Source: a virus. From it: 56,634 bases of DNA. Positions 5,868 to 54,389 of this stretch are shown here, one piece after another; position 1 is the stretch's first letter, and each line of letters begins with the position of its first letter. Position numbers and translations under genes: made by a program. The stretch is taken from positions 1 through 56,634 of IMG/VR virus record IMGVR_UViG_3300025655_000043, one strand, 5' to 3'. The notes beneath the pieces are model-generated. The model had not been told where the DNA came from. It did no database searches and saw nothing but the letters and a program-made list of their open reading frames with translations.

Positions 5868-5873
5868 AACGCT

Positions 5874-5902
5874 TGCCTTTTTCATAGAAACAGATTTTAA
5901 TT
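5874..5902 (+). promoter_or_regulatory. Possible promoter before the 5931 gene
   Basis: TTGCCT at 5874-5879 is followed by TTAATT at 5897-5902 (17-base spacer; TTTAAT with 16). It matches the -35 box used elsewhere in this genome but has a weaker -10. It lies in the 63-base gap between scaffold and the next gene. Confidence 0.45.
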
Positions 5903-9808: not shown

Positions 9809-9837
9809 TTGTTATTTCTTCAAAAATGTACCATAAT
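9809..9837 (+). promoter_or_regulatory. Promoter for the 9900 tail transcript
   Basis: TTGTTA (9809-9814), 17-base spacer, CATAAT (9832-9837), in the 92-base gap before the adaptor-like gene. The -10 matches the CATAAT used at other promoters of this genome. Confidence 0.7.
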
Positions 9838-14613: not shown

Positions 14614-14642
14614 TTGCCTTGTAGTGAACTTGAAGGCATAAT
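14614..14642 (+). promoter_or_regulatory. Promoter before the 14673 gene
   Basis: TTGCCT (14614-14619), 17-base spacer, CATAAT (14637-14642), in the 70-base gap after the fibre gene. A 6-base inverted repeat TTTCTT / AAGAAA (14644-14660) lies right behind it, around the expected transcription start. Confidence 0.7.
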
Positions 14643-21734: not shown

Positions 21735-21764
21735 TTGTCTTTTACAGACTTTCGAGACTATAAT
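21735..21764 (+). promoter_or_regulatory. Promoter after endolysin
   Basis: TTGTCT (21735-21740), 18-base spacer, TATAAT (21759-21764), beginning just past the endolysin stop and driving the second adaptor-like gene and downstream tail genes. Confidence 0.7.
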
Positions 21765-21796: not shown

Positions 21797-21815
21797 TTGA
21801 ACCTACGGAGTGGTC

Positions 21816-34749: not shown

Positions 34750-34770
34750 TCTCAGTTCTCCAAAGGTTGC

Positions 34771-34790: not shown

Positions 34791-34797
34791 GACCGAC

Positions 34798-35793: not shown

Positions 35794-35824
35794 TTTCATT
35801 CTCCAGTTCTAAGTTGGGTTGAGT

Positions 35825-35838
35825 AGGTCAATCGACCT
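35825..35838 (-). promoter_or_regulatory. 5' leader hairpin of DUF932 transcript
   Basis: AGGTC / GACCT stem with 4-base loop, starting about 7 bases after the -10 box, at or near the transcript 5' end. Two other early promoters carry hairpins in the same place. Confidence 0.5.
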
Positions 35839-35844
35839 GAGTGT

Positions 35845-35873
35845 ATCATGCCTGAAGTTTTCACCTCAGGCAA
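35845..35873 (-). promoter_or_regulatory. Early promoter of DUF932 gene
   Basis: Minus strand TTGCCT (35873-35868), 17-base spacer, CATGAT (35850-35845). An AT-rich stretch (AAAATAGTTTCAAAAAG) lies upstream. GCCTGA and TCAGGC (35850-35855 and 35866-35871) form an inverted repeat between the boxes, a possible operator. Confidence 0.75.
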
Positions 35874-35892
35874 CTACTTTTTGAAACTATTT

Positions 35893-36363: not shown

Positions 36364-36393
36364 CTTCAGTTCTCCAGTTCTTCAGTTCTAGTT

Positions 36394-36412
36394 CGGTTGA
36401 ACCCCTCAACCG
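36394..36412 (-). promoter_or_regulatory. 5' leader hairpin
   Basis: CGGTTGA / TCAACCG, a perfect 7-pair inverted repeat with 5-base loop, about 8 bases behind the -10 box of the promoter at 36420-36448, near the start of the transcript. Confidence 0.6.
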
Positions 36413-36419
36413 TAAGTGT

Positions 36420-36448
36420 ATTATGCCTGAGTGTTTCATAGTCGGCAA
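36420..36448 (-). promoter_or_regulatory. Early promoter of the 35893-36363 gene
   Basis: Minus strand TTGCCG (36448-36443), 17-base spacer, CATAAT (36425-36420) followed by ACACT. An AAAATATTTTCAAAAATG stretch lies upstream, nearly the same as at the DUF932 promoter. Confidence 0.82.
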
Positions 36449-36492
36449 CACATTTTTGAAAATATTTTCATATTTCTGCAAGTCGTTGTTTT

Positions 36493-38043: not shown

Positions 38044-38402
38044 AGTGCGACCCCCATCAACTCATTGACGGTCATTTCATTGATCTTGTCGGCGTGCTCT
38101 CCACCGATCAGCATCCAACGCTTGTCGGTCACGATCAAGAAGTAAGCATTCCCCTCAGCCTTCATCTGCCGCAAGAACCAGTTGGTCTGCTCCTGCGACA
38201 CCTTGTGGTTGGAACCGAACAGCTTGGTCGTGGCGCGGACAGGCTCCTTTGGCGACTTTTGCTCGATCCAGCACTCCACCCCGTCAGAGCAGAAGTTGAT
38301 GTCGGGCATGCCGTTCACCACCACGTTCTCAACCCTGTCCAACCGGTCTCGACCTTGAGGCAGGTTTGCTTTCAACACCTTGTAATCGTTGCTTTCAGCC
38401 AT
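37950..38402 (-). CDS. VRR-NUC-like (PD-(D/E)XK) nuclease
   Basis: 150 residues from the ATG behind CGGAGGCTCG. VVVNGMPDINFCSDGVECWIEQKS gives G-x-PD (D34) and E47-x-K49, the PD-(D/E)XK catalytic core in VRR-NUC order. A Q-rich helix (SQEQTNWFLRQM) and a strand (AYFLIVTDKRWMLIG) follow, as usual for the family. Small stand-alone VRR-NUC proteins are common beside phage helicases and may cut branched DNA. It overlaps the polymerase gene by 8 bases. Confidence 0.78.
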   Translation of the reverse strand: MAESNDYKVLKANLPQGRDRLDRVENVVVNGMPDINFCSDGVECWIEQKSPKEPVRATTKLFGSNHKVSQEQTNWFLRQMKAEGNAYFLIVTDKRWMLIGGEHADKINEMTVNELMGVALWHTTKPVRDKESWTKLRQTLSSKPNPTATS

Positions 38403-41151: not shown

Positions 41152-41704
41152 CGGCTTTGTCCTCCTCAAACAAAAGTTCAAGGAACCCGTCCTTGGCGAT
41201 GCATTCGTGCAACGCCTTCACGTCGTCCAACGCTCGGTGCGTTTGTGCCAGTGGGAACCCCATGATCCGCTCGTACAACTCCAACAGCTTGGGACGCTTG
41301 CCGAATTGCGAGTGATATTCTTGGACCGTGCAGACAACCTGCTCTGGCCACGGGAAGTCCGTGCACTCAACTCGCTCCAAGTCCAACTCCAGCATCTTCT
41401 TGTCGAACGGCGCGTTGTGCGCGATCAACACTTGCGTGTCGGTGAAGAACTCCTTGAGGTGCGGCAGGAAGTCTGTGAAGGTCGGCTTGTCTGCCAGCAT
41501 TTCGTTGGTGATGCCGGTGATCTTGGTGATCTCCTCAGTGATTTCAACCTCTGGATTCAGCATCTGGTTCAACTCGCGCACCACGCCGTCTTTGTTGACG
41601 ACCACAGCCCCTAGTTCGATGATGCGCGGTTGCTTGTCGAGCGGCGCGGTCTTCGGCAGAGGCAAGCCAGTTGTCTCTGTGTCAAATATTACGATGTTGG
41701 TCAT
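41126..41704 (-). CDS. dnaQ: DnaQ-like 3'-5' exonuclease (DEDDh)
   Basis: 192 residues from the ATG behind AAAGAGGAGTCAAA. Exo I motif FDTETTG (D8, E10), Exo II HNAPFD (D101) and Exo III HRALDD (H156, D161) are all present, as in the proofreading epsilon subunit. The gene directly precedes, and overlaps by 26 bases, the DnaE-like polymerase gene, so the two probably form a phage-encoded Pol III core, with proofreading supplied in trans. Confidence 0.9.
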   Translation of the reverse strand: MTNIVIFDTETTGLPLPKTAPLDKQPRIIELGAVVVNKDGVVRELNQMLNPEVEITEEITKITGITNEMLADKPTFTDFLPHLKEFFTDTQVLIAHNAPFDKKMLELDLERVECTDFPWPEQVVCTVQEYHSQFGKRPKLLELYERIMGFPLAQTHRALDDVKALHECIAKDGFLELLFEEDKADDPSKNQD

Positions 41705-41913
41705 TTTGACTCCTCTTTCTTTTGCGCGTCCTTCAGCCACCTGTAAATGGACCTCGACGACACTTTACATTCTGCGGCAGCCAAAACTACACTTGTGGCT
41801 TTCGCTCGATACAAGGCCTCCACTCGCACTTCGTCGCTGTAGCCGTAATCAGGGTGATATCCCAGACTCATGATCTGATTGCTCCCACTGGTTTGTTTTG
41901 CCGTTGAGATCAT
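41701..41913 (-). CDS. Small helix-turn-helix protein
   Basis: 70 residues. VRVEALYRAKATSVVLAAAECKVSSRSIYRWLKDA is a helix-turn-helix of the homeodomain-like / transposase-resolvase type with a clear recognition helix. The rest is short and polar. Its TGA overlaps the exonuclease ATG (ATGA). It may regulate phage or host promoters or be a DNA-binding partner of the replication genes. Confidence 0.7.
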   Translation of the reverse strand: MISTAKQTSGSNQIMSLGYHPDYGYSDEVRVEALYRAKATSVVLAAAECKVSSRSIYRWLKDAQKKEESK

Positions 41914-41918
41914 TTGAC

Positions 41919-42395
41919 CTATTCCTGTGCCTGATCGATGCGCACGATGAACTTCAGGTCTACCCCAAGAACTTGCTTGGTGTCGAAGATCACGTAGTTG
42001 TACTTGCGCTTGCCAGCGATGACGGGGTTGGTGTGCGAGTCGGTGAACACCTCCTGCGCCACAGCATATCCGCGCTCATGGAAGAACTTGCGCCACTCGA
42101 CCAACTCCTCCGCCGTGCAATGCATGCCGAGGTGGCTGACCGTGTTGCGACCGCGCATCAAAGAGTCAACCCAGTTCTCACCATCGGTGTAGTCAAGAAC
42201 CTCGAACTCTTTGCCGCCGAACAGTTCATAGTTGAAACTGAGGTCGGCTTCATTGGTGCCTGTCTTGCCGAAAACTTTGCCGGTGGCGACAACATGGTCG
42301 TTGTGCCATTCGACCGCACCCATCTCTGAGAGAAGTACTTTGGCGCGGATAGGGTCTGCGGGTGCGATGGCGATTTGTTCAATGACGAATTTCAT
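41919..42395 (-). CDS. VOC-superfamily-like protein
   Basis: 158 residues from the ATG behind GGAGCCTAACC. The sequence SHLGMHCTAEELVEWRKFFHERGY followed by NYVIFDTKQVLGVDLKFIVR matches the half-barrel pattern of glyoxalase/vicinal-oxygen-chelate proteins as I know it from phages. Candidate metal ligands are His in SHLGMH, but the full set is not clear. It begins 2 bases after the dehydrogenase stop and ends 5 bases before the HTH start. Substrate unknown. Confidence 0.55.
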   Translation of the reverse strand: MKFVIEQIAIAPADPIRAKVLLSEMGAVEWHNDHVVATGKVFGKTGTNEADLSFNYELFGGKEFEVLDYTDGENWVDSLMRGRNTVSHLGMHCTAEELVEWRKFFHERGYAVAQEVFTDSHTNPVIAGKRKYNYVIFDTKQVLGVDLKFIVRIDQAQE

Positions 42396-42397
42396 GG

Positions 42398-43066
42398 TTA
42401 GGCTCCATAGGGAAGAATGCAACCGGTGAGGTGCTTGTGGTGGTTCTTGTCTTGCAACAAGAAGGCGATGAACTCAGCAACGCGCTCTGGGGGAGTTTCC
42501 TCGCCGCAAAGCAAACCGTTCAGTTGGTATTGCTGGGCGTACTCTTTGGTCCAGCCGCGAGTCTTGACGACCTGATTGTCGATCGCATCGCTCATGCCTG
42601 TTCCTTTGAGTTTGTTGGGCGCGATGCCGAACACGGTGATGCCGTGCTTCTTGGTCAACTCACGCGCCAGTTGCAACGTCATGATGTGCGCCGCGCCTTT
42701 GGAGGCGTTGTATGCCAGCGAACACGTCATCGGCATGTGCGCCGCGTTGCTCACGATGTTTAGGACGGTGCCTTTGCTTTCGATCAGCAGCGGCAGGTAC
42801 GCTTGGGTCATCTTGAAGATGCCCTTGGCGTTGACGTTCATGACTTCGTCCCACTGATCTTCGGTGAAGTTTTCCAACCAATCGATCAGGTTGACGCCTG
42901 CACAGTTGATCAGCACGTCCAGCTTTTCGCAAGCGATTCTCGGCTTCAGGATGTCGTCGCCGGAGTTGCGGTCGTAGGCGATCACTTCGTGGTTGTCTTT
43001 TTCCAACGCTTTGTAGATGGCAAGACCAAGACCCTTGGCTGCGCCGGTTACGAGAATGGTGCTCAT
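42398..43066 (-). CDS. Short-chain dehydrogenase/reductase (SDR)
   Basis: 222 residues from the ATG behind AAAAGGAGCAGAAGCA. Rossmann motif TGAAKGLGLA (7-16), NCAG-type N54-C55-A56-G57, catalytic S106 (NIVSNAAHM), Y119 and K123 (YNASK). It is a NAD(P)-dependent oxidoreductase of the classical SDR fold; the substrate cannot be read from the sequence. It is an unusual cargo for a phage replication block and pairs with the VOC-like gene directly downstream and the FAD-type oxidoreductase at 46043. Metabolic or nucleotide-modification role is speculative. Confidence 0.85.
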   Translation of the reverse strand: MSTILVTGAAKGLGLAIYKALEKDNHEVIAYDRNSGDDILKPRIACEKLDVLINCAGVNLIDWLENFTEDQWDEVMNVNAKGIFKMTQAYLPLLIESKGTVLNIVSNAAHMPMTCSLAYNASKGAAHIMTLQLARELTKKHGITVFGIAPNKLKGTGMSDAIDNQVVKTRGWTKEYAQQYQLNGLLCGEETPPERVAEFIAFLLQDKNHHKHLTGCILPYGA

Positions 43067-43356
43067 TGCTTCTGCTCCTTTTCGATTAGGGATTGAACCA
43101 TGGCTGCGTAAACTGCGCAGTCGTGAATGCTGTCGACGTGGGTTAGGTTGCTGTTGGCGAAGCGTGTCAGCTTCACGATCATCAACTCGAAAAGGTGCCA
43201 CGTGTTGAAGTCTTCCTGCGTCTTCAACTCGACGCCTTCAGGGAACAACGCGACCATCACGTCGCCGACACGCTTGTAGTTGTCGCCATAGACCTTGTTG
43301 CGTTCGCGGAAGGTCTCGGCCATTTCCGCGAGGATGTCTGCTGCGTTCTTTTTCAT
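43063..43356 (-). CDS. DUF6378-like protein
   Basis: 97 residues from the ATG overlapping the HAD stop codon. Pattern MAETFRERNKVYGDNYKRVGDVMVALFPEG, then FNTWHLFELMIVKLTRF and HVDSIHDCAVYAAMVQ, fits a small all-helical phage family I know as DUF6378, possibly related to MazG-like nucleotide pyrophosphohydrolases. Histidine and aspartate of IHD could bind a metal. Coupled by ATGA on both sides to the HAD and SDR genes. Confidence 0.65.
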   Translation of the reverse strand: MKKNAADILAEMAETFRERNKVYGDNYKRVGDVMVALFPEGVELKTQEDFNTWHLFELMIVKLTRFANSNLTHVDSIHDCAVYAAMVQSLIEKEQKQ

Positions 43357-43832
43357 CTGATCTTCCTTGGGTTGGTATAGGCGCACACGTTGTGGATGCA
43401 GGTGTGGTAGCCCTTGATGTTGTGATCGCGGTACATCTGCACCACGTCCTGCCGGTCGTCGTACGCGCAAAGCACATCGGTCGGATCGGCGTCCATCAGC
43501 TTGAAGAACTTGCGCAGCTGGCGCTGTTTCAAGTCAATCGATTGCGAATGGTCGTCGGTCGGGCGCATGAGCAACGCGGCGCAATCGATGCCATTGCGTT
43601 CGAGCCACTCTTGCGTGATCGCTGCGTAAAACTCTGGGCGAGCCGTGAACACGACGATCTCAGTGCCTTCCGGCAGCTTGCGCACGAGGTCTTGGTTGCC
43701 GAAAGCGTCGAACCCTGCCAACAAGTGGTACCGGTGGTAACGCTCGAAGGGATGGTCTTTGGACCAGTCGATTTCATTAATGCGCCAGCCGTCATCGCTG
43801 ATGGTGTTGTCTAGATCGAAGATGGCGTACAC
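43353..43832 (-). CDS. HAD-family phosphatase (polynucleotide phosphatase-like)
   Basis: 159 residues. FDLDNTISDD gives the HAD nucleophile pair D6 and D8, VVFTARPE the second motif, and CAYDDRQDVVQMYRDHNIKGYHTCI the acidic third motif. The FDLDNT...TAR...DDR layout resembles the phosphatase domain of phage polynucleotide kinases, without the kinase. It could remove 3' phosphates from DNA or RNA or act on nucleotides. Stop overlaps the DUF6378-like start. Confidence 0.8.
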   Translation of the reverse strand: MYAIFDLDNTISDDGWRINEIDWSKDHPFERYHRYHLLAGFDAFGNQDLVRKLPEGTEIVVFTARPEFYAAITQEWLERNGIDCAALLMRPTDDHSQSIDLKQRQLRKFFKLMDADPTDVLCAYDDRQDVVQMYRDHNIKGYHTCIHNVCAYTNPRKIR

Positions 43833-43834
43833 GG

Positions 43835-44197
43835 TTATTTGCTCCTCTCTGCGATGCGAGCGCGGTTGGCAGAGATTGCTTCACCGTCGGGGATCCAATG
43901 GCACCACCAGTCCTTGGCAAGGATGCCGGTGGGCGGCGGCGTGTCGTAACCGACCTTGTAGCCGCGACGCAGCATCTCGCCGCGCAGCTGGTAGAAGCGT
44001 TGCGTGCAGAACGTGAGCCGCTTGTAAAAGAACTTCACGTGACCGGTGCCGAGAGTATACCGCTCTGGGGCGGTGACCTTGCGGTTGGCGTGGTAGGCTT
44101 TGGCAGCCAACGTGAACACGCGAGGCAACTCTTTCCATTCAGCCAACAGGTGTTGGCGCGACAACTCTTGCGGTGGGACGCAGTTGATCCGTGTCAT
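43835..44197 (-). CDS. denV: T4 endonuclease V homologue (pyrimidine-dimer glycosylase)
   Basis: 120 residues, starting MTRINCVPPQELSRQHLLAEWKELPRVF, which closely follows T4 DenV ([28 protein letters not shown]). The nucleophile Thr2, Arg3, catalytic Glu23 and Arg26 are kept; T4 Arg22 is Lys here. GTGHVKFFYKRLTF matches T4 GAGHVTFFYDKLEF. It should remove cyclobutane pyrimidine dimers from UV-damaged DNA. Next to ThyX in the early block. Slightly shorter than T4 DenV (138). Confidence 0.93.
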   Translation of the reverse strand: MTRINCVPPQELSRQHLLAEWKELPRVFTLAAKAYHANRKVTAPERYTLGTGHVKFFYKRLTFCTQRFYQLRGEMLRRGYKVGYDTPPPTGILAKDWWCHWIPDGEAISANRARIAERSK

Positions 44198-44200
44198 GGC

Positions 44201-44920
44201 TCAACCTCCCTTGCGCATCTTGTCGACGATCTTGAGCAGCTTGCCCTTCTTGAGCAGGTCACCGCCGTACTCACGTTGCGCGAATTCCTCGATCTCGGCA
44301 AAGTAGTCGCGTCCCTCTTGGAACAAGAACTTCTCTGCCCATGGGTGCACTTCGAGCACAGCGTCCACCATTGCGTTGACGACCTGCTGGTACTCGCCTT
44401 GCGTGCGACCACCGGTGCGGGACTTGGCCAGATCGACGAAGGTTCGCAGGTTGAACTTGCACACGATGTTGGTGGAGATGTTGGTGGGCAGAACGCCGCG
44501 TGCGTCCTCGACCGCGTGACCCATGTCGAGCAGCTTGTTGTAGGTGTGCTTGATGACGGCGAGGCACTGGTTGACGGCTTCCATGGCGGCGGGATCGGCT
44601 TTGATCTTGTCGCTGTGGATGTATTCGAACTCTCCCATGTTCAGCACGCGCATCGTCTGCTGGGCGTAGGACGCCTGACGGGTGCGAACTTGTTGATGCG
44701 TGTACGCTCGGCTCACGCCTTCCACGAGGAACACGTAGTCCACGAACTCCCAACTGGAGGGAATCGTGTTGGCCATGTATTCCAACTCAGCCATCTTCTC
44801 GGTGTGGGACTTGGCGCGGATCTCGTCCAGCAGTCCTGGGGACATTGTCAGACGCGTCGCCTTCGTGAACATCAAGAGGTTCTCGGCGTCAGGGGTGTAG
44901 CTAATTAAAGTGACTTTCAT
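44201..44920 (-). CDS. thyX: Flavin-dependent thymidylate synthase ThyX
   Basis: 239 residues. The ThyX signature appears as RTRQASYAQQTMR (79-91): RxRxxS is present, with Thr in the place of the usual His. VKFNLRTFVDL is replaced here by CKFNLRTFVDLAKS, another conserved block binding dUMP/FAD. It makes dTMP from dUMP using FAD and methylene-tetrahydrofolate, supplying thymidine for phage DNA. The start follows the GGAGAACTGCA leader. Confidence 0.92.
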   Translation of the reverse strand: MKVTLISYTPDAENLLMFTKATRLTMSPGLLDEIRAKSHTEKMAELEYMANTIPSSWEFVDYVFLVEGVSRAYTHQQVRTRQASYAQQTMRVLNMGEFEYIHSDKIKADPAAMEAVNQCLAVIKHTYNKLLDMGHAVEDARGVLPTNISTNIVCKFNLRTFVDLAKSRTGGRTQGEYQQVVNAMVDAVLEVHPWAEKFLFQEGRDYFAEIEEFAQREYGGDLLKKGKLLKIVDKMRKGG

Positions 44921-44945
44921 TGCAGTTCTCCGTTCTGAGGTTTTT

Positions 44946-44968
44946 GCGAGGGGTGGTCAGCCCCTCGC
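44946..44968 (-). other. Intercistronic hairpin before thyX
   Basis: GCGAGGGG / CCCCTCGC, a perfect 8-pair stem with a 7-base loop, between the 44977-45387 gene and thyX. On the minus strand it is followed by AAAAA rather than T, so it is not a standard terminator; it may stabilise or separate the messages. Confidence 0.55.
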
Positions 44969-44976
44969 GGTTGGGG

Positions 44977-45387
44977 TTACATCAATACGAATTCATGACC
45001 ATCGAATTCAGCCTTGCCATCCGCTTTGAGTTTCATGCGGAACTTGATGTGGGAGCCAATCGGCAGTCCTAGCGCGACGAACGCTGCTCGCACCGACTTG
45101 TATTCGGCTTTGCCGTTAACCAGCACACCGTTGCGTTGAGAACGAGCAGCCTTCACGCCAGCGTCAGACCAGCTGGCCGCTACTGCCGTGCTGCGTGCTT
45201 CGTTCTTGGGCTTGGTTTCAACTTGGGTTTCCATAGGTTTCTCCTGAAGGGATGGGTGTGCAGCACGCGCATTCTTCAGTTGCCGGATGCCTGCTGCACG
45301 CGATGAAAACTTCTTGATGCACTTGCCGGTGAGTTGGTTGTACTCGGCAACCATCGATGAAGTGGTCATTTGGTTGATGTCAAACAT
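44977..45387 (-). CDS. Hypothetical protein with two likely starts
   Basis: 136 residues from 45387 behind GGAGAACTGCT. An internal ATG at 45234 (METQVETKPKNEAR) has its own strong site, AGGAGAAACCT, and would give an 85-residue protein. The N-terminal part (MVAEYNQLTGKCIKKFSSRAAGIRQL) is a small helical module I have seen in phage and plasmid proteins. The C-terminal part (GVLVNGKAEYKSVRAAFVALGLPIG) looks like a small nucleic-acid-binding or SAP/HTH-like fold. No firm function. Confidence 0.65.
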   Translation of the reverse strand: MFDINQMTTSSMVAEYNQLTGKCIKKFSSRAAGIRQLKNARAAHPSLQEKPMETQVETKPKNEARSTAVAASWSDAGVKAARSQRNGVLVNGKAEYKSVRAAFVALGLPIGSHIKFRMKLKADGKAEFDGHEFVLM

Positions 45388-45402
45388 AGCAGTTCTCCGT
45401 TC

Positions 45403-45570
45403 TCAGTTAACTCGCGCACGGGTGATCCACCCCTGCTCGTACAACTCGCCTACGGTCATGTCACCGCATTCGAGCAGCATTGCGAAATGTTCGATTGCCT
45501 TTTCTTCGCTGTCGTAGAGCGTGAACTCCGTGCGGTCGTCAAGGTCGATGTAGCAGACGTAAACTTCCAT
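45403..45570 (-). CDS. Small hypothetical protein, 55 residues
   Basis: Starts at an ATG behind GAGGAGCGCGGCC. Acidic, with MEVYVCYIDLDDRTEFTLYDSEEKAIEHFAMLLE then a short C-terminal helix-turn. No known domain; fits the run of short early proteins that often act on host functions. Confidence 0.6.
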   Translation of the reverse strand: MEVYVCYIDLDDRTEFTLYDSEEKAIEHFAMLLECGDMTVGELYEQGWITRARVN

Positions 45571-45581
45571 GGCCGCGCTCC

Positions 45582-45755
45582 TCACAGGGTTGGTTGCTGC
45601 ACGGAGACCGTGTAGCCCAAGTCTCGGATCTGCGCGATTGCGCGGTCGGTGAAGGTCTTGGTGCCGATCAGGTCGGCCAGCTTGCGCGCAGTGTCGCAAA
45701 CGGGATACACTGCGCGGTTGCCGAAGTTGTTGGTGATGCGGACGATGATGTTCAT
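45582..45755 (-). CDS. Small hypothetical protein, 57 residues
   Basis: Starts at an ATG behind TTGAGGAGGTCGCC. MNIIVRITNNFGNRAVYPVCDTARKLADLIGTKTF then IAQIRDLGYTVSVQQP: a beta-alpha-beta-like miniature fold. No known domain. Lies 11 bases before the next gene in the early cluster. Confidence 0.6.
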   Translation of the reverse strand: MNIIVRITNNFGNRAVYPVCDTARKLADLIGTKTFTDRAIAQIRDLGYTVSVQQPTL

Positions 45756-45765
45756 GGCGACCTCC

Positions 45766-45963
45766 TCAACCAACAACATTGAAGTGAAAGTGGATGCCGT
45801 TCTGCATGGCGACTTCGCCGACGAACACGGGGAAGAACCGTCCGTCCTCGCTCGTCATGATGAAGTGGCGCAGACCCTCGAAACCTTTCTTGGCAACAGC
45901 TTTGCGGGCATTGTCAGCGGTGGCATAGGTCTTCGGGGCGGTGATGGTGAATTCGCGGTTCAT
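45766..45963 (-). CDS. Small hypothetical protein, 65 residues
   Basis: MNREFTITAPKTYATADNARKAVAKKGFEGLRHFIMTSEDGRFFPVF: basic N-terminal half, beta-rich C-terminal half. No domain recognised. It is first on an early transcript with its own promoter (46011-46039), leader hairpin and two GAACTG-type leader repeats, so it is probably strongly expressed early. Confidence 0.65.
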   Translation of the reverse strand: MNREFTITAPKTYATADNARKAVAKKGFEGLRHFIMTSEDGRFFPVFVGEVAMQNGIHFHFNVVG

Positions 45964-45988
45964 GGTGTTCTCCAGTTCTTCAGTTCTC

Positions 45989-46003
45989 CGGTCACGTCGA
46001 CCG
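45989..46003 (-). promoter_or_regulatory. 5' leader hairpin
   Basis: CGGTC / GACCG, 5-pair stem with 5-base loop, 7 bases behind the -10 box of the promoter at 46011-46039. Confidence 0.5.
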
Positions 46004-46010
46004 TAACAGT

Positions 46011-46039
46011 ATTATCCAACATATTTTTCTGTCCGGCAA
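46011..46039 (-). promoter_or_regulatory. Early promoter of small-gene cluster
   Basis: Minus strand TTGCCG (46039-46034), 17-base spacer, GATAAT (46016-46011). Confidence 0.8.
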
Positions 46040-46042
46040 CAT

Positions 46043-46954
46043 TTATTTTGCATTCGCTCGCATGCGGTCGTAAGTCGTTGTGTTCATTAGCTTTTTCAAC
46101 ACTGCCACGTCCTGAATCACGTCGTCTAGGAGCAGGTTGCGCCACGTTCCGAACCGTCCGAGGCTGAAGATGTTGTGCTCGTGGGTGAGGTAGAAGATGA
46201 ACTGCTTGCGCCAGGAGTCGTTGATCTTGGCGATCTTGCCGTAGCGTTGTGACACCTTCTCTATAGGCACGCAGTCGCGCTCGCTCAACCCGAACGCTTC
46301 GAACAGTGGGTAGTCGTCAGAGGCGTCCACGTACTCCGCGATGAGCAGGTCGCCAGTGATGCTGGCGCGGTACAAACTGGTTTCCAGTCCTGGGAAGTAC
46401 ACCGTCTGAAACACATCAGCGTTCGGCACGCGCCACCGCCGCACCGTGATCGCCTCGTGGCTGAAGGTTGGTGCTGATTCAATGAACTCGCGGCTCAGTT
46501 CGTTGGCCATGAACTTGACCATCACGTTCATCGGGAGCGTGCTGATGGCCGGTTCTTTTTCGGTCAACACCTCCTCACGCGTCAAGGCGTGGTTCCAAGT
46601 GATGCGACCGGCGCACCGCTCGATCAGGAGGCTGATGAAGTCTTCCGGTGCGATGAACCGCTCGGACGTTTCGAGGTTCCAGATGCTGCGGTCAGCCAAC
46701 CGCCCGATCACTTTGCGCGAGTACCAGTTGGCGAGTTGGATGCTCGGCGCAACACTCTTGCCGTCCAGCCACAACCCCTTGTGCACCTTCACCTTGCGGA
46801 AGTCGATGCCGACCGCGTCTCCAACGGCTGAACTCCTGAACCGCAAAACAGCCTTGTGCTGACCGGTGTTCTCTGGCGACGCTTCGAAGAGACGCGCCTG
46901 TTGAAACATGCATCCGGCGAGCAAACCCGCGATGCCAGCACCATAGATCTTCAT
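46043..46954 (-). CDS. FAD-type oxidoreductase, UDP-galactopyranose-mutase-like
   Basis: 303 residues. The N-terminus MKIYGAGIAGLLAGCMF is a dinucleotide-binding GxGxxG Rossmann motif. Near the C-terminus FSLGRFGTWRNLLLDDVIQDV resembles the GR-(F/Y) then helix block of UDP-galactopyranose mutase and related amine-oxidase-like flavoproteins. The middle is divergent. Substrate unknown; it may act on sugar nucleotides, DNA modification or the host surface. It is the first gene of the leftward early block, with its own promoter and GGAGAACATAAC leader. Confidence 0.7.
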   Translation of the reverse strand: MKIYGAGIAGLLAGCMFQQARLFEASPENTGQHKAVLRFRSSAVGDAVGIDFRKVKVHKGLWLDGKSVAPSIQLANWYSRKVIGRLADRSIWNLETSERFIAPEDFISLLIERCAGRITWNHALTREEVLTEKEPAISTLPMNVMVKFMANELSREFIESAPTFSHEAITVRRWRVPNADVFQTVYFPGLETSLYRASITGDLLIAEYVDASDDYPLFEAFGLSERDCVPIEKVSQRYGKIAKINDSWRKQFIFYLTHEHNIFSLGRFGTWRNLLLDDVIQDVAVLKKLMNTTTYDRMRANAK

Positions 46955-46986: not shown

Positions 46987-47015
46987 ATTATGACGCAGTC
47001 CTGCAACGATGGCAA
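46987..47015 (-). promoter_or_regulatory. Leftward early promoter of oxidoreductase gene
   Basis: Minus strand TTGCCA (47015-47010), 17-base spacer, CATAAT (46992-46987). It stands back to back with the rightward promoter at 47042-47070. Confidence 0.82.
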
Positions 47016-47041: not shown

Positions 47042-47070
47042 TTGCCTTCTTGGCGAAGACGACCGATAAT
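47042..47070 (+). promoter_or_regulatory. Rightward early promoter of replication block
   Basis: TTGCCT (47042-47047), 17-base spacer, GATAAT (47065-47070), 77 bases before the 47147 gene. Confidence 0.8.
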
Positions 47071-47090: not shown

Positions 47091-47119
47091 TTGCGAAAGT
47101 TTGAAGACCACGGCATACT
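47091..47119 (+). promoter_or_regulatory. Possible second rightward promoter
   Basis: TTGCGA (47091-47096), 17-base spacer, CATACT (47114-47119), with the GGAGAACTGAAG leader just behind. Weaker match than the promoter at 47042. Confidence 0.45.
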
Positions 47120-47146: not shown

Positions 47147-47485
47147 ATGCCGAAAGTTTACATAACACAAGTGCCGAACCGGCGCGACCCTGAGACGAAC
47201 ACATTCGTCCCTACGGTCAACATTGCTCCCGCAGCTGAACACGGTGAACCCGTGATCCTCATGCCTCCTCGGTCGTCGTTCTTCGCGACGTCGGACTTGG
47301 TGAAGCAGCTGCGTGAGAAACTAGAGCACTACGACTACGAAGCTGGCGACAGCATCGTGGCCATGGGCGACCCCGCTGTCATCGCTGTTGCTTGTGCACT
47401 GCTCGGCAAGTTGCACGGGCGGTTCCAAGTGTTGAAGTGGGACAAGAATGTGGGGCGGTACATACCGTCACACGTGAGTGTTTAA
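47147..47485 (+). CDS. Conserved hypothetical replication-block protein, 112 residues
   Basis: MPKVYITQVPNRRDPETNTFVPTVNIAPAAEHGEPVILMPP then LVKQLREKLEHYDYEAGDSIVAMGDPAVIAVACALLGKLHGRFQVLKWD. The C-terminal half has a nucleotide-binding-like helix-strand pattern but no known motif. It is the first gene after the divergent promoter pair, behind the GGAGAACTGAAG leader, so early expression is likely. Confidence 0.68.
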   Translation: MPKVYITQVPNRRDPETNTFVPTVNIAPAAEHGEPVILMPPRSSFFATSDLVKQLREKLEHYDYEAGDSIVAMGDPAVIAVACALLGKLHGRFQVLKWDKNVGRYIPSHVSV

Positions 47486-47505
47486 CTGAGAAAGGAGAAA
47501 GTAGG

Positions 47506-48006
47506 ATGTCTATCACACTAGACGAAATGACCGCCTTGGCTCGCGCCTTGGTGGATGCGGACTCGGCTGTTGAAGAGGCTGAAGCCGCGCTGAAGCACAC
47601 CAAGGAGGTTGCGCGCATCTTGCGCGAAGAAACAATCCCCTCGGCAATGCAAGAACTGGGCATCGAGAAACTTGAACTCAGCACCGGTCAGAAGATCACC
47701 ATCTCCCAAGAGGTGTACGCTTCCATCCCAGCTGCGAGCAAAGACGACGCTCACCGTTGGCTGGAGGCGAATGGGTTCGGCGGCTTGATCAAGGTCGGCG
47801 TCACCACCCAGTACGGCAAGGGCGAACGCGACGCCGCTCTCACGTTGTTCCGTGACCTTGTTGGTCGCGGTCTCAGCGCCAAGTTCGACGAGAGCGTTCA
47901 CCCTCAGACGTTGAAGGCGTTCCTCAAGGAACAAATTTCCTCCGGCAACAACGTGCCGCTGGAACTGTTTGGTGCGCGTCCTGTCTGGACCGCAAAGATC
48001 AAGTAA
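47506..48006 (+). CDS. Conserved hypothetical protein near ssDNA-binding gene
   Basis: 166 residues from the ATG behind AAAGGAGAAAGTAGG (upstream in-frame codons have no ribosome site). An N-terminal helix (MSITLDEMTALARALVDADSAVEEAEAALKHTKEVARILREE in pieces) is coiled coil. The centre reads ELSTGQKITISQEVYASIPAASKDDAHRWLEANGFGGLIKVGV, a pattern I know from small phage proteins next to ssDNA-binding proteins. Function not established; likely a replication or recombination partner. Confidence 0.7.
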   Translation: MSITLDEMTALARALVDADSAVEEAEAALKHTKEVARILREETIPSAMQELGIEKLELSTGQKITISQEVYASIPAASKDDAHRWLEANGFGGLIKVGVTTQYGKGERDAALTLFRDLVGRGLSAKFDESVHPQTLKAFLKEQISSGNNVPLELFGARPVWTAKIK

Positions 48007-48029
48007 CCCAACTCTCAAGGAGAATCATC

Positions 48030-48812
48030 ATGGCTACAAAACCCAAAACCGATGTCGCAGTGAAAGACGACAAGAACCTCCCGATGGCAATGATGGCGGA
48101 CATGGCCGCCGACGCTGGCATGGGGCTGGAAGGCGCGGACAAAGACTCGTTCGCAATACCGTTCATCGCGATGCTGCAAGGTCTTTCGCCGCAACTGGAA
48201 ACAGTCGAAAGCGCAAAGCCCGGACTGTTCATCAACACCATCACCAACGAGGTGTTCAAGGAGGCGTTGGTCGTGCCGTGCGCGTACCAGCGGCGTTACC
48301 TGCGTTGGGCTCCGCGCGACGCTGGCGGCGGCTACAAGGGCGACTTCAGCCCGATCGATGTCGAAACCGGCAAGCTGCTCAACGTGGAACGCGGCGACGA
48401 TGGGCGTCTGCGGATCGACGGCGACGAGTTGAAGGACACGCGCAATCACTTTGTCCTCGTGCGCTCGACGAGCGGCGTGTGGCAACCAGCGTTGCTGTCG
48501 CTCAGTTCCACGCAGATCAAGAAGTCGAAGCGTTGGATGAGCCTCATTCAAGGCATCGAGATGCGCAACCCGCAAGGCAAGCCGTTCACCCCTCCCTCGT
48601 TCAGCCACGTGTACAAACTCACAGGCGTGAAGGAGGAAAACTCGAAAGGCTCTTGGTGGGGCATCAACATCGAGGTTGTGGAGCCGGTGGCTGATCAAGA
48701 CCTCTACCTCAAGGCTCGTGAGTTCAGCAAGCAGGTCGCTGCAGGCGAGGTGAAAGTCTCTGAGCCCGTCTCTGACGCGGTGCACGAAGAAGGCGGCGAC
48801 GACCGCTTCTAA
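48030..48812 (+). CDS. Probable ssDNA-binding protein
   Basis: 260 residues. IPFIAMLQGLSPQLETVESAKPG and FNTITNEVFKEALVVPCAYQRRYLRWAPRDAGGGYKGDF are the conserved region of a phage family often predicted to bind ssDNA. The C-terminus is acidic and ends in an aromatic residue (HEEGGDDRF), the hallmark of bacterial and T7 ssDNA-binding proteins used to recruit partners. It precedes the primase-polymerase. The assignment is inferred from neighbours and tail. A strong terminator follows. Confidence 0.65.
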   Translation: MATKPKTDVAVKDDKNLPMAMMADMAADAGMGLEGADKDSFAIPFIAMLQGLSPQLETVESAKPGLFINTITNEVFKEALVVPCAYQRRYLRWAPRDAGGGYKGDFSPIDVETGKLLNVERGDDGRLRIDGDELKDTRNHFVLVRSTSGVWQPALLSLSSTQIKKSKRWMSLIQGIEMRNPQGKPFTPPSFSHVYKLTGVKEENSKGSWWGINIEVVEPVADQDLYLKAREFSKQVAAGEVKVSEPVSDAVHEEGGDDRF

Positions 48813-48831
48813 GCCGCATCGCAATCAACTG

Positions 48832-48871
48832 AAAGGCGTGCGGCTGTCCAACAACAGTCGTGCGCCTTTTT
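48832..48871 (+). terminator. Intrinsic terminator after ssDNA-binding gene
   Basis: AAAGGCG-TGCGG-CTGT pairs with ACAG-TCGTG-CGCCTTT (GU pairs allowed) to make a stem of about 16 pairs with a short CCAACA-type loop, followed by TTTTT (48867-48871). It would lower expression of the primase-polymerase relative to the ssDNA-binding protein. Confidence 0.78.
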
Positions 48872-48891
48872 CATCAGAGAGGAGTTCATGA

Positions 48892-51051
48892 ATGAACGAA
48901 ACGCACACAGCTGCGGTCGATTATGCCAAGCGCGGATGGATGGTCTTCCCGCTGCATTCGATCGCTGACGATGGTGTGTGCACTTGTGGGAACGCGGCTT
49001 GCTCAGACGCTGGCAAGCACCCAAGAGTTGCACGCGGCTTGAAGGAAGCGTCGCGCGACCTGAAGCAAATAGACGACTGGTTCGGCGCGAGTGCGCCGCG
49101 CTCCAACATCGGCATCGTCACCGGAGAAATCTCCGGCATCACGGTGCTCGACATCGACGTGGGTGAAGGCAAGTTCGGCGCAGAGTCTTGGGCTGACGCG
49201 ATTGCAGACCACGGCGAACCCAACACGCTCATCGCTGAGACTGGTTCCGGCGGGATGCACGTGATCTTTCAATACAACTCCGCGCTCAAGACAGCCAGCA
49301 ACGTGCTCGGCAAAGGCGTGGACAGCCGCAACGACGGCGGCTACATTGTCGCTGCGCCTTCGCGCCACCGGTCGGGAGGGACTTACAAGTGGCTCAATTG
49401 GGGAACCGCGTTGGCTGTTCTCCCCGCGCATCTCTCGCGCCGCAAAGAAACCCGTGGCCGTCCGAAGAAGGACGACATGTATCGCGGCAAGTACACCATC
49501 GAACAAGTGGCGACGATGCTGGAAAGCGTTCCCGCAGACGACAGGGACTTGTGGCGGTCGGTGGGAATCATTCTCGGCAGAGAGTTTGACCGCGTGGACG
49601 AGGCTTGGACGGTTTACCAAGAGTGGTCTGCAAAGTTCAGCGGCAAGAAAGGTCGCAACCACAACGAGATCATGCACGAGGCGTTCTATGAGTTGAGCCA
49701 GCAGAACGCCGAAAAGCAACTCACCGTCGGCACCATCGTGAAGGCTGCGCTCGACAACGGTTGGGCTCCCAAGAGCGGTGAGGTGCCGCTCGGCAACTTC
49801 ATCTACTACGGTCCAGGCAACAACTACATCTACCGCCCCACCAACAGCTTCTGGATTGCTGCTGCTGTGGACTCAGCCGTGTCGCCGGTGAACGAGAATG
49901 GCAAGTTGATGAAGGCGTCAGATTGGCTGCGCAAGAACGCGCTGGTCACCTCCATGACTTCCGACCCCTCGATCGAAGACGACTACGTGAAAGGCTACGA
50001 TTGCCGCGACGGAGAGGTGGTGGTGAGCGCGGGTGCGGCGTTGTTCAATGCGTACCGCCGCCCGACGATCGAACTGGGCGTGCCCAAGATGGCGCAACCG
50101 TTCCTCGACCACGTGCACCGCATCTTCAACAAGGCAGGCGACGCCGAGCAGTTCCTGAACTACATGGCTCACCGCGTGCAAAAGCCATGGGAGAAACCTC
50201 GGTTCGCGCTGCTGATTGCCGGTGGGCAAGGCGTGGGCAAAGACACGGCGATCGAGTTTTGCTGTCCGGCGATCGGCGCATGGAACGTCTCGAACATCGA
50301 CCCTGGAGCCTTCGAGCAATCCTTCAACGAGTACGCTGCCGCAACGCTCGTGCGCATCTCGGAAGCCGCCAATTTGCACGAGATGTCCAAGTGGGCGTTC
50401 AACGAACGCACCAAGGTGCTGATCGCCGGTTCACCCGACACCTGCCAGATCAATCCCAAGTATGGCCAGAAGTTCTCGGTGCGCATGTACTGCGGCGTGA
50501 TCATCACCACCAACCACCTCGCCAACGGCATCTACATCCCTGAGGACGACCGCCGCTACGACGTGATCGACTGCGCCACCATGGACGAGATGGGACTGCG
50601 CAAGGAAGACGTCCGCCGCCAGTACTTCAGCGACCTGTGGGAGTGGTTCTTCGAAGGCGGTGCGAGCCACGTGGCCGCGTACCTCCACGAGCACGACATC
50701 TCCAAGTTCAACGCAAGCAACGGCCAACGCAAAACCGACGCGCACAAAACGGTCGTGGCTTCCGGCATGACGGGCGACCAATGGCTCGACGACATCCTCG
50801 AAGACATGAACTACCCCGTGGCTGTTCGGTCGGATTGGCTGCTCACCAAGGCGGTTGCCGAAGGCGAAAAGGAAGGCGACATCAAGCGCAAGTTGGCCAA
50901 CTCCATGACCCGCTCCGGCTACACGCTCCATCGCTCGGACAGGAAAGACGGTCGGTGGAAGATCGGCAACAAGGTTGTCACCGTCTACGTGAAAGCAGGC
51001 ACACCCAACGATTACGACCCAACACAGGAGTTGGCCAATGAACCGTTCTAA
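48892..51051 (+). CDS. Primase-polymerase / helicase
   Basis: 719 residues. N-terminal PrimPol (archaeo-eukaryotic primase) domain: cysteine cluster CTCGNAAC (30-37), KHPR, VLDIDV with D87 and D89, and GGMHVIF with H123. A PriCT-like linker (about 200-290) follows. The C-terminal half is an ATPase: Walker A GGQGVGKDT (444-452), then KVLIAGSPD and IITTNH, like the D5/SF3-type helicases fused to such primases. It should make primers and unwind DNA in phage replication. GGAG lies 7 bases before the ATG. Confidence 0.85.
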   Translation: MNETHTAAVDYAKRGWMVFPLHSIADDGVCTCGNAACSDAGKHPRVARGLKEASRDLKQIDDWFGASAPRSNIGIVTGEISGITVLDIDVGEGKFGAESWADAIADHGEPNTLIAETGSGGMHVIFQYNSALKTASNVLGKGVDSRNDGGYIVAAPSRHRSGGTYKWLNWGTALAVLPAHLSRRKETRGRPKKDDMYRGKYTIEQVATMLESVPADDRDLWRSVGIILGREFDRVDEAWTVYQEWSAKFSGKKGRNHNEIMHEAFYELSQQNAEKQLTVGTIVKAALDNGWAPKSGEVPLGNFIYYGPGNNYIYRPTNSFWIAAAVDSAVSPVNENGKLMKASDWLRKNALVTSMTSDPSIEDDYVKGYDCRDGEVVVSAGAALFNAYRRPTIELGVPKMAQPFLDHVHRIFNKAGDAEQFLNYMAHRVQKPWEKPRFALLIAGGQGVGKDTAIEFCCPAIGAWNVSNIDPGAFEQSFNEYAAATLVRISEAANLHEMSKWAFNERTKVLIAGSPDTCQINPKYGQKFSVRMYCGVIITTNHLANGIYIPEDDRRYDVIDCATMDEMGLRKEDVRRQYFSDLWEWFFEGGASHVAAYLHEHDISKFNASNGQRKTDAHKTVVASGMTGDQWLDDILEDMNYPVAVRSDWLLTKAVAEGEKEGDIKRKLANSMTRSGYTLHRSDRKDGRWKIGNKVVTVYVKAGTPNDYDPTQELANEPF

Positions 51052-51424
51052 GATGTTCGATCCGTTCGACCCGAACAATCGCGACAAACGCAAACGCCGC
51101 ACCAAGGCGCAAATTGCCGCCGACACCGCTGCTTGGAACGCTCGAATCGACGATGCGTTCCGGATTGCGTTGGAGGAACTCAACGACCCAAACTACGCGC
51201 AAGGCGACTTCCTGCTCGAAGTTGCCGCGCAACATCACGACAACTACTACGCGCTGCGACGCAACATCACGCCTGCGATGGAGCGGCTCGGCTACAAAAT
51301 TCTGCCCAACGAAAACTCCTCCGACAAGCGGTGGAAGGCGTTCGGCAAGAGCCTCACCGTCTACCGGAAAGTGGACGCGCCTGTCCTCGAACGCGACGCG
51401 CTGGCCGTCGAATTGGAGTGGTGA
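51038..51424 (+). CDS. Small hypothetical basic protein, 128 residues
   Basis: Overlaps the end of the primase-polymerase by 14 bases. Basic N-terminus (NNRDKRKRRTKAQIAADTAAWN), then a helical part (FLLEVAAQHHDNYYALRRNITPAMERLGYKIL) that could be a winged-helix or HTH domain, and a short acidic end. No named family. Coupled to the replicase; a DNA-binding accessory role is plausible. Confidence 0.68.
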   Translation: MNRSKMFDPFDPNNRDKRKRRTKAQIAADTAAWNARIDDAFRIALEELNDPNYAQGDFLLEVAAQHHDNYYALRRNITPAMERLGYKILPNENSSDKRWKAFGKSLTVYRKVDAPVLERDALAVELEW

Positions 51425-51427
51425 GGG

Positions 51428-51670
51428 ATGGGCACGCCGCTGACACCTTGGATCAAGATCAACAAGGGCGACCGCCGCCCAACCGAGCGCGTCCTCGTCT
51501 CGTACGATTACAAAGACCTTGACGCTGAAACGCTGGAGTGGGTCACACGTTGGGGCGTCACCGGCGCATGGTGGAACCCTAAGCGCCAACATTGGGTTGC
51601 TGATCACGGCAAGCCGATCACGAACGTGACACATTGGATGCCGATGCCTGGAGTGAATGATGACCGATGA
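51428..51670 (+). CDS. DUF551-like protein
   Basis: 80 residues. TPWIKINKGDRRPTERVLVSYDY, WWNPKRQHWVAD and VTHWMPMPGVNDD show the pattern of DUF551 proteins, small phage proteins of unknown function ending in a 'THWMPxP' motif. Preceded by GAGGG. Overlaps the next short frame by 11 bases. Confidence 0.72.
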   Translation: MGTPLTPWIKINKGDRRPTERVLVSYDYKDLDAETLEWVTRWGVTGAWWNPKRQHWVADHGKPITNVTHWMPMPGVNDDR

Positions 51671-51791
51671 AGAGCGAATCGCTCAACTCGAAGCAACCGT
51701 GGCCATGCTCGAAAGACGCATCGAACAACTGCGAGATGAGATAAAATATCTGAAACGGAAGGTTGGAAAGTGGCCCGACAAACACGTTTAA
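51660..51791 (+). CDS. Small coiled-coil protein, 43 residues
   Basis: MTDEERIAQLEATVAMLERRIEQLRDEIKYLKRKVGKWP is an almost perfect heptad coiled coil, SlyX-like. It overlaps the DUF551-like stop by 11 bases and is followed by the AT-rich gap. No catalytic residues. Probably dimerises; function unknown. Confidence 0.55.
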   Translation: MTDEERIAQLEATVAMLERRIEQLRDEIKYLKRKVGKWPDKHV

Positions 51792-52018
51792 AAGTGTTAG
51801 AACAGATATTTTTGGAGAGAAAATTGCGTGGAGTTAAGTTCGACGATGTTGGTTTTAACGGGCTGAAACAGAAGATGGATTTTCGGCGATGGAATGGCGT
51901 AAGTCGTTGTTCGACGAGGGGAAATCGACGATTGCACGCCGGTGGTGGGAGAGTGCGTAGCCCGTCAAACGTGGTAATACTCCCAAAGATATTTAATTAT
52001 ATAACGAGGAGAATATAG
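51770..52018 (+). CDS. Uncertain small gene, possibly frameshifted
   Basis: GTG at 51770 behind GGAAGGTTGGAAA opens an 82-residue frame. The first 30 residues (ARQTRLKVLEQIFLERKLRGVKFDDVGF) look protein-like, but from about 51857 on the frame becomes Arg/Gly-rich and poor. Another frame from 51859 to 51960 reads RAETEDGFSAMEWRKSLFDEGK then STIARRWWESA and stops, which looks more natural. A single -1 shift near 51857 would join the two into a protein of about 63 residues. Real gene, indel or AT-rich non-coding DNA are all possible. Confidence 0.35.
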   Translation: MARQTRLKVLEQIFLERKLRGVKFDDVGFNGLKQKMDFRRWNGVSRCSTRGNRRLHAGGGRVRSPSNVVILPKIFNYITRRI

Positions 52019-52069
52019 GGAAAATCAGAATAATAAACGATTAAATATCCGGACGATATTTACCACGTT
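51968..52069. repeat. Separated 10-base inverted repeat
   Basis: AACGTGGTAA at 51968-51977 and TTACCACGTT at 52060-52069 are exact complements with 82 bases between them. The span encloses the 8-pair palindrome and the most AT-rich stretch of the genome. Confidence 0.6.
52042..52062. repeat. 8-pair inverted repeat
   Basis: TAAATATC, 5-base spacer CGGAC, GATATTTA. Perfect palindrome in the AT-rich gap before the terminase promoter; candidate operator or origin element. Confidence 0.6.
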
Positions 52070-52090
52070 CATCGGGCTGAGGACTTTCCC

Positions 52091-52119
52091 TTGCCTTTGC
52101 CGTGCAGTCAGCACATAAT
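52091..52119 (+). promoter_or_regulatory. Late promoter of terminase genes
   Basis: TTGCCT (52091-52096), 17-base spacer, CATAAT (52114-52119), 30 bases before the small terminase start. It probably starts the main late transcript. Confidence 0.82.
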
Positions 52120-52148
52120 TCAAACAAACATTCGACGGAGCGTGCCAG

Positions 52149-52640
52149 ATGGCGACCAAATACACGGACGCAGACAAGCGCAAAATTGCAGACAAAGTCT
52201 TCAGGCTCATGGAGACAGGCATGCCTCTGGGCAAGTCGTGCAAAGAAACTGGCGTTCCGAAAGCTACCGTGCAGGGTTGGATCGCCGCTGACACGGCCAT
52301 CGCCGGCCAGTACGCGCTCGCGCGCGAGGCGCTGCTGGAACATTGGGCTGAGGAAGTGGTCACTGTTGCCGACGACGATCCCGCGCAAGTGGTCGATCAA
52401 AACGGCGTCGCTCGTTATGACTCTGCCGCCGTGCAACATCAACGTCTGCGCGTTGACTCACGCAAGTGGGTGCTCAGCAAACTCAAGCCGAAACAATACG
52501 GCGACAAGATCACCAACGAACACACGGGTGTCGACGGTGGACCAATCGCGCTGGCGGCGGTCGACCTGAAGAACCTCAGCGACAAAGAACTTGCAGAAAT
52601 GAAAGCCCTGATGGCGAAGATATCTGGTGGGAAGGAATAA
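52149..52640 (+). CDS. terS: Terminase small subunit
   Basis: 163 residues. N-terminal helix-turn-helix (DKVFRLMETGMPLGKSCKETGVPKATVQGWIAAD), a central helical oligomerisation part with WVLSKLKPKQYGDKITNEHTG, the usual TerS 'KWxLSKLxPKxYGDK' motif, and a polar tail. It recognises phage DNA and feeds the large subunit. Placed directly upstream of TerL with the terminase promoter in front. Confidence 0.88.
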   Translation: MATKYTDADKRKIADKVFRLMETGMPLGKSCKETGVPKATVQGWIAADTAIAGQYALAREALLEHWAEEVVTVADDDPAQVVDQNGVARYDSAAVQHQRLRVDSRKWVLSKLKPKQYGDKITNEHTGVDGGPIALAAVDLKNLSDKELAEMKALMAKISGGKE

Positions 52641-52644
52641 CACA

Positions 52645-52821
52645 TTGTTTGAAAATGAAACGAAGTTCAAACTCATCGATGTCCTCTGGCCGTGGGGGAG
52701 GATCAAGCGTTTGAAGATTGCCTTGAATCAATCTTTGCAAGACAATCAAGCCCTCGCCGACAAACTGTCGGAATTGACAGACCGCGATGAACGCGGCAGA
52801 TTCGTGAAGAAGCCGAAATGA
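52645..52821 (+). CDS. Small hypothetical protein between terminase subunits
   Basis: 58 residues from a TTG behind AAGGAATAACACA; a GTG at 52627 would add six residues and overlap TerS. Sequence FKLIDVLWPWGRIKRLKIALNQSLQDNQALADKLSELTDRDERG: an amphipathic helix then a coiled coil. Its stop overlaps the TerL start (ATGA). No known domain. Confidence 0.55.
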   Translation: MFENETKFKLIDVLWPWGRIKRLKIALNQSLQDNQALADKLSELTDRDERGRFVKKPK

Positions 52822-54389
52822 ACTCTGTTGTTGAGCCTGCATTGCTGTTGAAGATGATCGAGGTGGAAGAAAGCCGCCGCGCAGCTTCAGGCTCACTGTA
52901 CGAGTTCGTGCGTCAATGTTGGCCAACAGTCGAACCAGGAGTGAAGTTCGTCGAGTCATGGCACATTGAAACAATCTGCGAGCACCTTGAAGCGATCACC
53001 GCTGGCGAGATCCGCAAGCTGCTCATCAACATCCCGCCGCGCCATTCAAAGTCCACGATCGTTTCGGTCATTTGGCCGATGTGGGAGTGGCTGACAGATC
53101 CAGCACACAAGTACCTGTGCGCATCCTACTCCGGCAACCTCAGCATCCGCGACAACCTGAAGGCAAGACGCTTAGTCCAATCACCATGGTATCAGGAACG
53201 ATGGGGACACATGTTCAGGCTTGCCGGAGACCAGAACGCCAAGCAGCGATTCGAGAACGACAAGACCGGCTACCGGCTTGCAACCTCGGTGGGCGGCACG
53301 GCGACGGGTGAAGGCGGATCGCGCCTGATCCTGGACGATCCACACTCTGCGCAAGAGGCTCAATCGGACGTGATCCGTGAGAGTGCGTTGGAGTGGTTCG
53401 ATGTTGTTTGGTCGACCCGTCTGAACGACCCGAAGAAAGACGCCATGGTGACCATCATGCAGCGTCTGCACGAGCGCGACATCTCAGGCCACATCCTTGA
53501 GGACATTGGCGGCTGGGAACACTTGATGATCCCCGCTGAGTGGGACGGCGTGAAGCGCAAGACGTTGCTGGGTGCGTATGATCCGCGCAAGAAGAAGGGT
53601 GACTTGATCTGCCCTGAACGCTTCGGCGAGAAAGAGATCACCGAACTGAAACAGCTGCTCGGCACGTATGGCACGGCAGGCCAACTGCAGCAAGACCCGA
53701 CGCCGTCTGAAGGCGGCATCTTGAAGACCGCGCACATCCAGATGTGGCCACACGACAAAGCGTTGCCGCAGTTCGAATACATTCTGCAGTCCTACGATTG
53801 CGCGTTCACCGAGAAAACGACCGGCGACCCGACCGCATGCAGCGTCTGGGCAATGTTCACGCACGAAGGCAAGCGCAACGCGATGCTGATCGACGCATGG
53901 GACGAGCACCTGTCGTACCCTGAGTTGCGCACCCGCGCCATCAAGGACTGGGGAACAGAGTACGGCGGCACATCCATCAAGGACGGCGTGCGCCGCGCTC
54001 GCAGACCCGACCGCGTGCTTGTTGAAGCCAAGGCGTCTGGCCAGTCGTTGCTCCAAGACCTGCGGTTGGCGAAGGTTCCAGCCATCCCCTACAATCCTGG
54101 ACTGGCGGACAAAGTCAGCCGTGCGCACCAAGCCGCGCCGACGTTGGAACTGGGGTTGATCTGGGTTCCTGAGTCAGCCAAGAACCCCGGACAGCCGGTC
54201 AGTTGGGCTGCGGCATTCCTGAAACAGCTTGCCAAATTCCCAGTTGCAGAGCATGATGACTATGTTGACACGTTCACGCAGGCGATAATCTACCTCAAGA
54301 ACAGCCAGTGGTTTGAACTGCCGCAAGCACGTGACCACGACGAACCGCAAAGGCTCAACGAACCTAGGGTGAATCCTTATGCCGCCTAA
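52818..54389 (+). CDS. terL: Terminase large subunit
   Basis: 523 residues. Walker A-like [11 protein letters not shown] (71-80), Walker B RLILDDPH (169-176, D173 and D174), coupling region, then the nuclease domain with SYDCAF (D327) and [13 protein letters not shown]. The PPRHSKS form of the P-loop is common in podovirus and prophage terminases. It is the ATPase motor and nuclease that packages DNA into the portal. Its stop overlaps the following virion gene by 11 bases. Confidence 0.93.

Follow-up and report, generated by a model that had tools for sequence, protein, structure and literature searches.

Promoter N25 of phage T5 (TTGCTT-17-TATAAT; boxes are given here with the spacer length between them) and promoter PR of phage lambda (TTGACT-17-GATAAT) are both read by the host polymerase, and both carry an UP element (PMC12464699). 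UP elements are also present in the early promoters of T4, while the MotA box of T4 is centred at -30 (PMC2988021). According to a review, G at position -14 can compensate for a base other than T at -12 (PMC2613000).

We analyzed a 56,634-base record of an uncultured phage (IMGVR_UViG_3300025655_000043), referred to in its full length as the window, for which genes were called mechanically. A structural block occupies the plus strand (about 90-34449), replication and nucleotide genes follow on the minus strand (34534-46954; helicase, DNA polymerase and its exonuclease, ThyX, a polynucleotide kinase/phosphatase-like protein and a short-chain reductase), and a third block lies on the plus strand (47147-54389; Pam3 gp32/33/34-like genes, primase and terminase). 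Where the structural and replication blocks converge, positions 34508-34528 hold a strong terminator-like hairpin, AACCCCGCCTAGTGCGGGGTT followed by a T run. The replication module shares ~40% protein identity with that of Myosmarvirus, Wifcevirus, Carpasinavirus and Pbunavirus phages. The record may be incomplete, as its final reading frame is cut off at the right edge of the window. No tRNAs were found in the window or in its relatives.

The window contains a real promoter family. The pattern TTGCC-N18-[CG]ATAAT occurs in six exact copies, each fully inside a gap between genes (14614, 47042 and 52091 on the plus strand; 36420, 46011 and 46987 on the minus strand), compared to a mean of 0.03 and a maximum of one in 100 dinucleotide shuffles; TTGAC-N18-[CG]ATAAT does not occur in the window, and gaps were put at about 3-4% of the sequence in this search. 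We then built a weight matrix from 40 sites in relatives alone, excluding those of the window. It returned 19 matches at a score of at least 12, and 11 of these fall in gaps, which make up 4.1% of the sequence (p about 3e-11). The seven top-scoring matches are all located in gaps, and below a score of 12 chance matches within genes predominate. A matrix scan had been proposed in the preliminary description as a check of gap confinement: at high score, matches were not as frequent inside genes as in gaps, and the 11 gap matches at this threshold are exactly the sites that it had listed. As had been described, all 11 lie in gaps upstream of genes; each place holds a two-box element facing the adjacent gene, with 27-76 bases between the end of the -10 box and the start codon. 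The boxes precede genes in both the early and the late blocks (classes assigned from gene content only), which supports the proposed genome-wide family serving both. What the sequences show directly is that the sites exist, where they lie, which way they face, how they are spaced and conserved, and that A-tracts accompany some of them; the polymerase that reads them, the UP contact, and promoter strength and timing are inferred. In a 19 kb section of the genome, matches to the consensus TTGACA/TATAAT were no commoner than in shuffled sequence, and such promoters are therefore easily overlooked; our literature search found no paper that names TTGCC promoters in such phages.

Although all 11 listed positions hold the element, several letters and coordinates required correction. 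In front of the structural gene at 5931-6461, the TTGCCT box and its 17-base spacer are present, but the site starts at 5873 instead of 5874 and its -10 box is TTTAAT (5873..5901, plus strand); its orthologs mostly read TTGCCT-17-TATAAT or CATAAT. The site before the gene at 9900-10889 (9809..9837, plus strand), described as TTGCC type, is actually TTGTTA-17-CATAAT, and the one before the structural gene at 21816-22448 (21735..21764, plus strand), listed among the variants, is TTGTCT-18-TATAAT. TTGCCT-17-CATAAT is located both before the gene at 14673-14990 (14614..14642, plus strand) and before the terminase small subunit gene at 52149-52640 (52091..52119, plus strand). On the minus strand, the promoter of a DUF932 gene (34798-35793) with its UP element is TTGCCT-17-CATGAT (35845..35873), in contrast to the (C/G)ATAAT reported for it. 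TTGCCG-17-CATAAT (36420..36448) precedes the gene at 35893-36363 and is directly followed upstream by an UP-like element, TATGAAAATATTTTCAAAAATGTG (36449..36472). Two further minus-strand promoters carry an A-tract, namely TTGCCG-17-GATAAT (46011..46039) before a block of small genes (44977-45963) and TTGCCA-17-CATAAT (46987..47015) before the gene at 46043-46954. The divergent partner of the latter, TTGCCT-17-GATAAT (47042..47070, plus strand), precedes the gene at 47147-47485 and the primase operon. The reported variant at 47091 exists as a second, weaker box before gene 47147, with a -35 of TTGCGA, a spacer of 17 and a -10 of CATACT (47091..47119, plus strand); its matrix score of 12.46 is the lowest of the eleven.

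Relatives were retrieved by way of the gene at 46043-46954; in them, boxes stand in front of the same genes, but the spacer sequences have drifted. At 47042, for instance, the window has tcttggcgaagacgacc as its spacer and relative G003 has ttttgcgcaggacgcag. The promoters at 9809 and 14614 are kept in G003, the one at 52091 in G003, G004 and G008, and the one at 46987 in G003, G005, G006, G007 and G008, and 46987/47042 are retained as a divergent pair in G003, G005, G006 and G008. TTGC-type boxes occur in genomes from ~45% GC (G007) to 66% GC (G015). For larger ortholog samples, the 80 top loci of each gene were taken, with 43-49 distinct upstream regions among them. The late promoters at 5873 and 21735 (about 46-49 distinct relatives per gene) mostly correspond to TTGCCT-17/18-TATAAT where a TTG box was found, orthologs of 9809 are more variable, and in each of the three sets some orthologs lack a recognisable TTG box. 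The only GTDB relative, a phage contig in a Methylomonas bin, has AT-richer boxes and no match to the replication genes tested. The cultured structural relatives are Caulobacter RW-type phages (41-58% identity), in which no such boxes precede the two genes inspected.

The regions around the promoters contain additional elements. Late genes 9900 and 21816 share, in their leaders (about 9866-9884 and 21795-21807), a GGGC-N-GCTGnAnCAGCnGCCA-like hairpin motif that is kept in many relatives and has no Rfam match; in the Methylomonas-bin relative its stem becomes ACTG/CAGT with pairing preserved. The leader of gene 5931 (5908-5926), TCGCTGAAAGGAGCGA, forms a hairpin with the ribosome-binding site at the loop and is nearly invariant in relatives. 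Early genes are preceded by an extended ribosome-binding leader of GAAC(GG/TGG/TGA)AGAAC units, often after AACT(C/T)A, with copies at 47137 on the plus strand and at 46972, 45986, 45402, 44937, 36390 and 35809 on the minus strand; distant relatives have a related AACTTAGAAAGGA leader. Ahead of the gene for the terminase small subunit lies an AT-rich tract (51967-52068), which is flanked by AACGTGGTAA/TTACCACGTT in the window and by the repeats AGTCCTTCAAAC/GTTTGAAGGACT and AGTCCTCTG/CAGAGGACT in G007 and G008, and is a candidate origin or packaging site.

The departure of the family from the sigma70 consensus is narrow and consists of C for A at -32 and C or G for T at -12. Compared to TTGACA, the TTGCC sites match at four of six positions and 46987 at five; TTG and the C at -31 are retained. 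The earlier statement that the -35 box lacks ACA was overstated, as the one consistent mismatch is the change from A to C at -32. The -10 box is near TATAAT, with NATAAT at 8 of the 11 window sites and CATGAT, TTTAAT and CATACT at the others. The spacer lies within 16-18 bases throughout (17 at 10 of the 11 sites, as had been noted for nearly all, and 18 at one), and it is 17 in 32/40 sites of relatives. Because TTG and ATAAT (plus two window variants) served as seeds in collecting the sites, information comes from the remaining free positions only. Among 42 clade sites, counted with the 93%-identical G003 left out, -32 is C in 38 and T in 4, and the absence of A (0/42; p about 5e-5 versus TTGN in gaps) is to be read with the relatives not being independent samples. 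At -12 we counted C 19, G 18, T 4 and A 1, in line with the preference for C or G first noticed before. Phages with related replication modules and known gammaproteobacterial hosts differ at both positions (p about 2e-5 at -32 and 3e-6 at -12), with C 18, A 11 and T 2 at -32 and mostly T at -12. Because late-promoter orthologs mostly combine TTGCCT with TATAAT, C at -32 is a broad-clade trait and C/G at -12 is typical of the closer lineage of the window. Position -14 is G in 24/50 sites.

Early and late sites differ upstream of the -35 box. All five presumed early window sites contain 5-7 A in the eight bases from -45 to -38, while only 2.4% of background 8-mers are that A-rich and the late window sites carry 1-5 A. 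A/T-rich subsites for the alpha-CTD at -38 to -59 are present at all five early-type sites and absent from most late-type ones. At 36420 and 35845, A/T tracts of the GAAAATATTTTC type are present distally as well, which fits full UP elements; such elements imply contact with the alpha-CTD.

The 17-base spacing, NATAAT, the A-tract UP elements and the single design for early and late genes together argue that these are sigma70-type promoters, probably read by the unmodified holoenzyme of the host's primary sigma factor. Gap confinement, enrichment and the conservation of the boxes in relatives of widely differing GC content also speak for this, as do replication-module relatives infecting Serratia, Aeromonas and E. 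coli, the sigma70 of which is standard and which likewise use TTGCC or TTGCT. Sigma region 2 would read NATAAT at -10, and region 4 would read TTGCC 17 bases further upstream, in the usual place of a -35 box. At the replication genes, alpha-CTDs would grip the A-tracts at -38 to -45 and create strong early promoters; the late, structural promoters, with the same boxes mostly without A-tract, would be intrinsically weaker and may be helped by genome copy number or by other means of control. Of the two readers named in the preliminary description, the host factor is the best reading, since NATAAT at a 17-base distance together with UP elements is the hallmark of a host holoenzyme with alpha-CTD, whereas we found no positive evidence for a modified host polymerase. 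Its remark that no phage RNA polymerase gene was seen agrees with our scans: neither an RNA polymerase nor a sigma gene was detected among the scanned window proteins with PHROGs, Pfam and NCBIfam, and for a phage RNA polymerase this includes the large unassigned virion proteins (PHROGs or Pfam) of a possibly incomplete record.

The count of 0/42 for A at -32 is not accounted for by chance loss, which speaks against the host reading. T at -12 is among the best kept sigma70 positions, and its rarity here (4/42) means that some extra constraint exists. UP elements combined with perfect consensus boxes may bind the polymerase too tightly; for this reason we prefer the idea that the exclusion of A at -32 possibly reflects tuning of promoter escape, and preference of a host or phage factor is possibly an alternative.

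Such a preference could reside in the hosts' primary sigma factor, or another sigma70-family factor, with a shifted -35 preference that the phage matches. We consider this unlikely: it would account for the clade-specific consistency at -32 and -12, but the ~45 to 66% GC range of the relatives suggests different hosts. Moreover, among E. coli phages phiEco32 uses TTGACA while Eco4M-7 mixes TTGC and TTGA, and hence the host does not dictate the -35 choice.

T4 AsiA and MotA exemplify sigma appropriation, and a phage protein could similarly alter sigma region 4 or bridge sigma to DNA such that TTGCC is preferred over TTGACA. The absence of A at -32 over the clade sampled and several small early proteins without assigned function, among them a 70 aa protein (41701-41913) with a sub-threshold helix-turn-helix match, are compatible with this, yet the presumed first-expressed genes carry the same box and would be read before any phage protein exists. 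Relatives with standard hosts mix TTGCC, TTGCT and TTGAC. The box also keeps the usual -35 location and a 17-base spacer, whereas the MotA box is centred at -30 (PMC2988021). We therefore regard a phage protein of this kind as quite improbable, and see only a slim chance that a conserved, undescribed protein of the clade retunes host sigma region 4 toward C at -32 and thereby creates a phage-specific, genome-wide promoter code. Finally, a repressor operator overlapping the boxes, a TGCC-N16-GGCA dyad spanning -34 to -11 (35846-35872, 36421-36447, 14615-14638) that would explain C at -32/-31 and -12, has perfect in-register arms of 4-7 bases at 35845, 36420 and 14614 and in single Aeromonas and Serratia phage sites, with arms of at least 5 in this register only among those scanned from -34, but is very improbable and was rejected for weak statistics, as it is seen in 8/55 sites only, reaches p = 0.04-0.44 in the clade alone for three arm-length counts and does not fit the GATAAT sites.

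For a large clade of uncultured phages, the sites provide a transcription map with about eleven promoters and two gene blocks, together with a promoter matrix for the annotation of its members. They also pose the question why A, the consensus base at -32, is avoided by these related phages although the rest of the sigma70 promoter is kept.

Among known systems, the middle promoters of T4, which depend on AsiA/MotA, likewise combine a sigma70 -10 box with a non-consensus upstream box. The MotA box replaces the -35, however, whereas the window box sits at -35 with a 17-base spacer, and PHROGs, Pfam and NCBIfam scans covering all but a few small structural-block genes found no AsiA or MotA family. 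The early promoters of T4 share sigma70 boxes, UP elements and independence from a phage polymerase; in contrast to them, the window sites have no conserved TGn, their -35 box is TTGCC, and late genes are served by the same boxes. T5 N25 and lambda PR resemble the window sites in the UP element, the TTG-led -35 box, the 17-base spacer, NATAAT and, as we infer here, the host holoenzyme. The C at -32 recurs in N25 and the G at -12 in PR (PMC12464699), and both odd letters thus have well-studied precedents in strong host-read phage promoters. In T5 and lambda the letters vary between promoters; in the window and its close clade, C at -32 and C/G at -12 are kept nearly throughout, and it is this consistency across genome and clade that is unusual.
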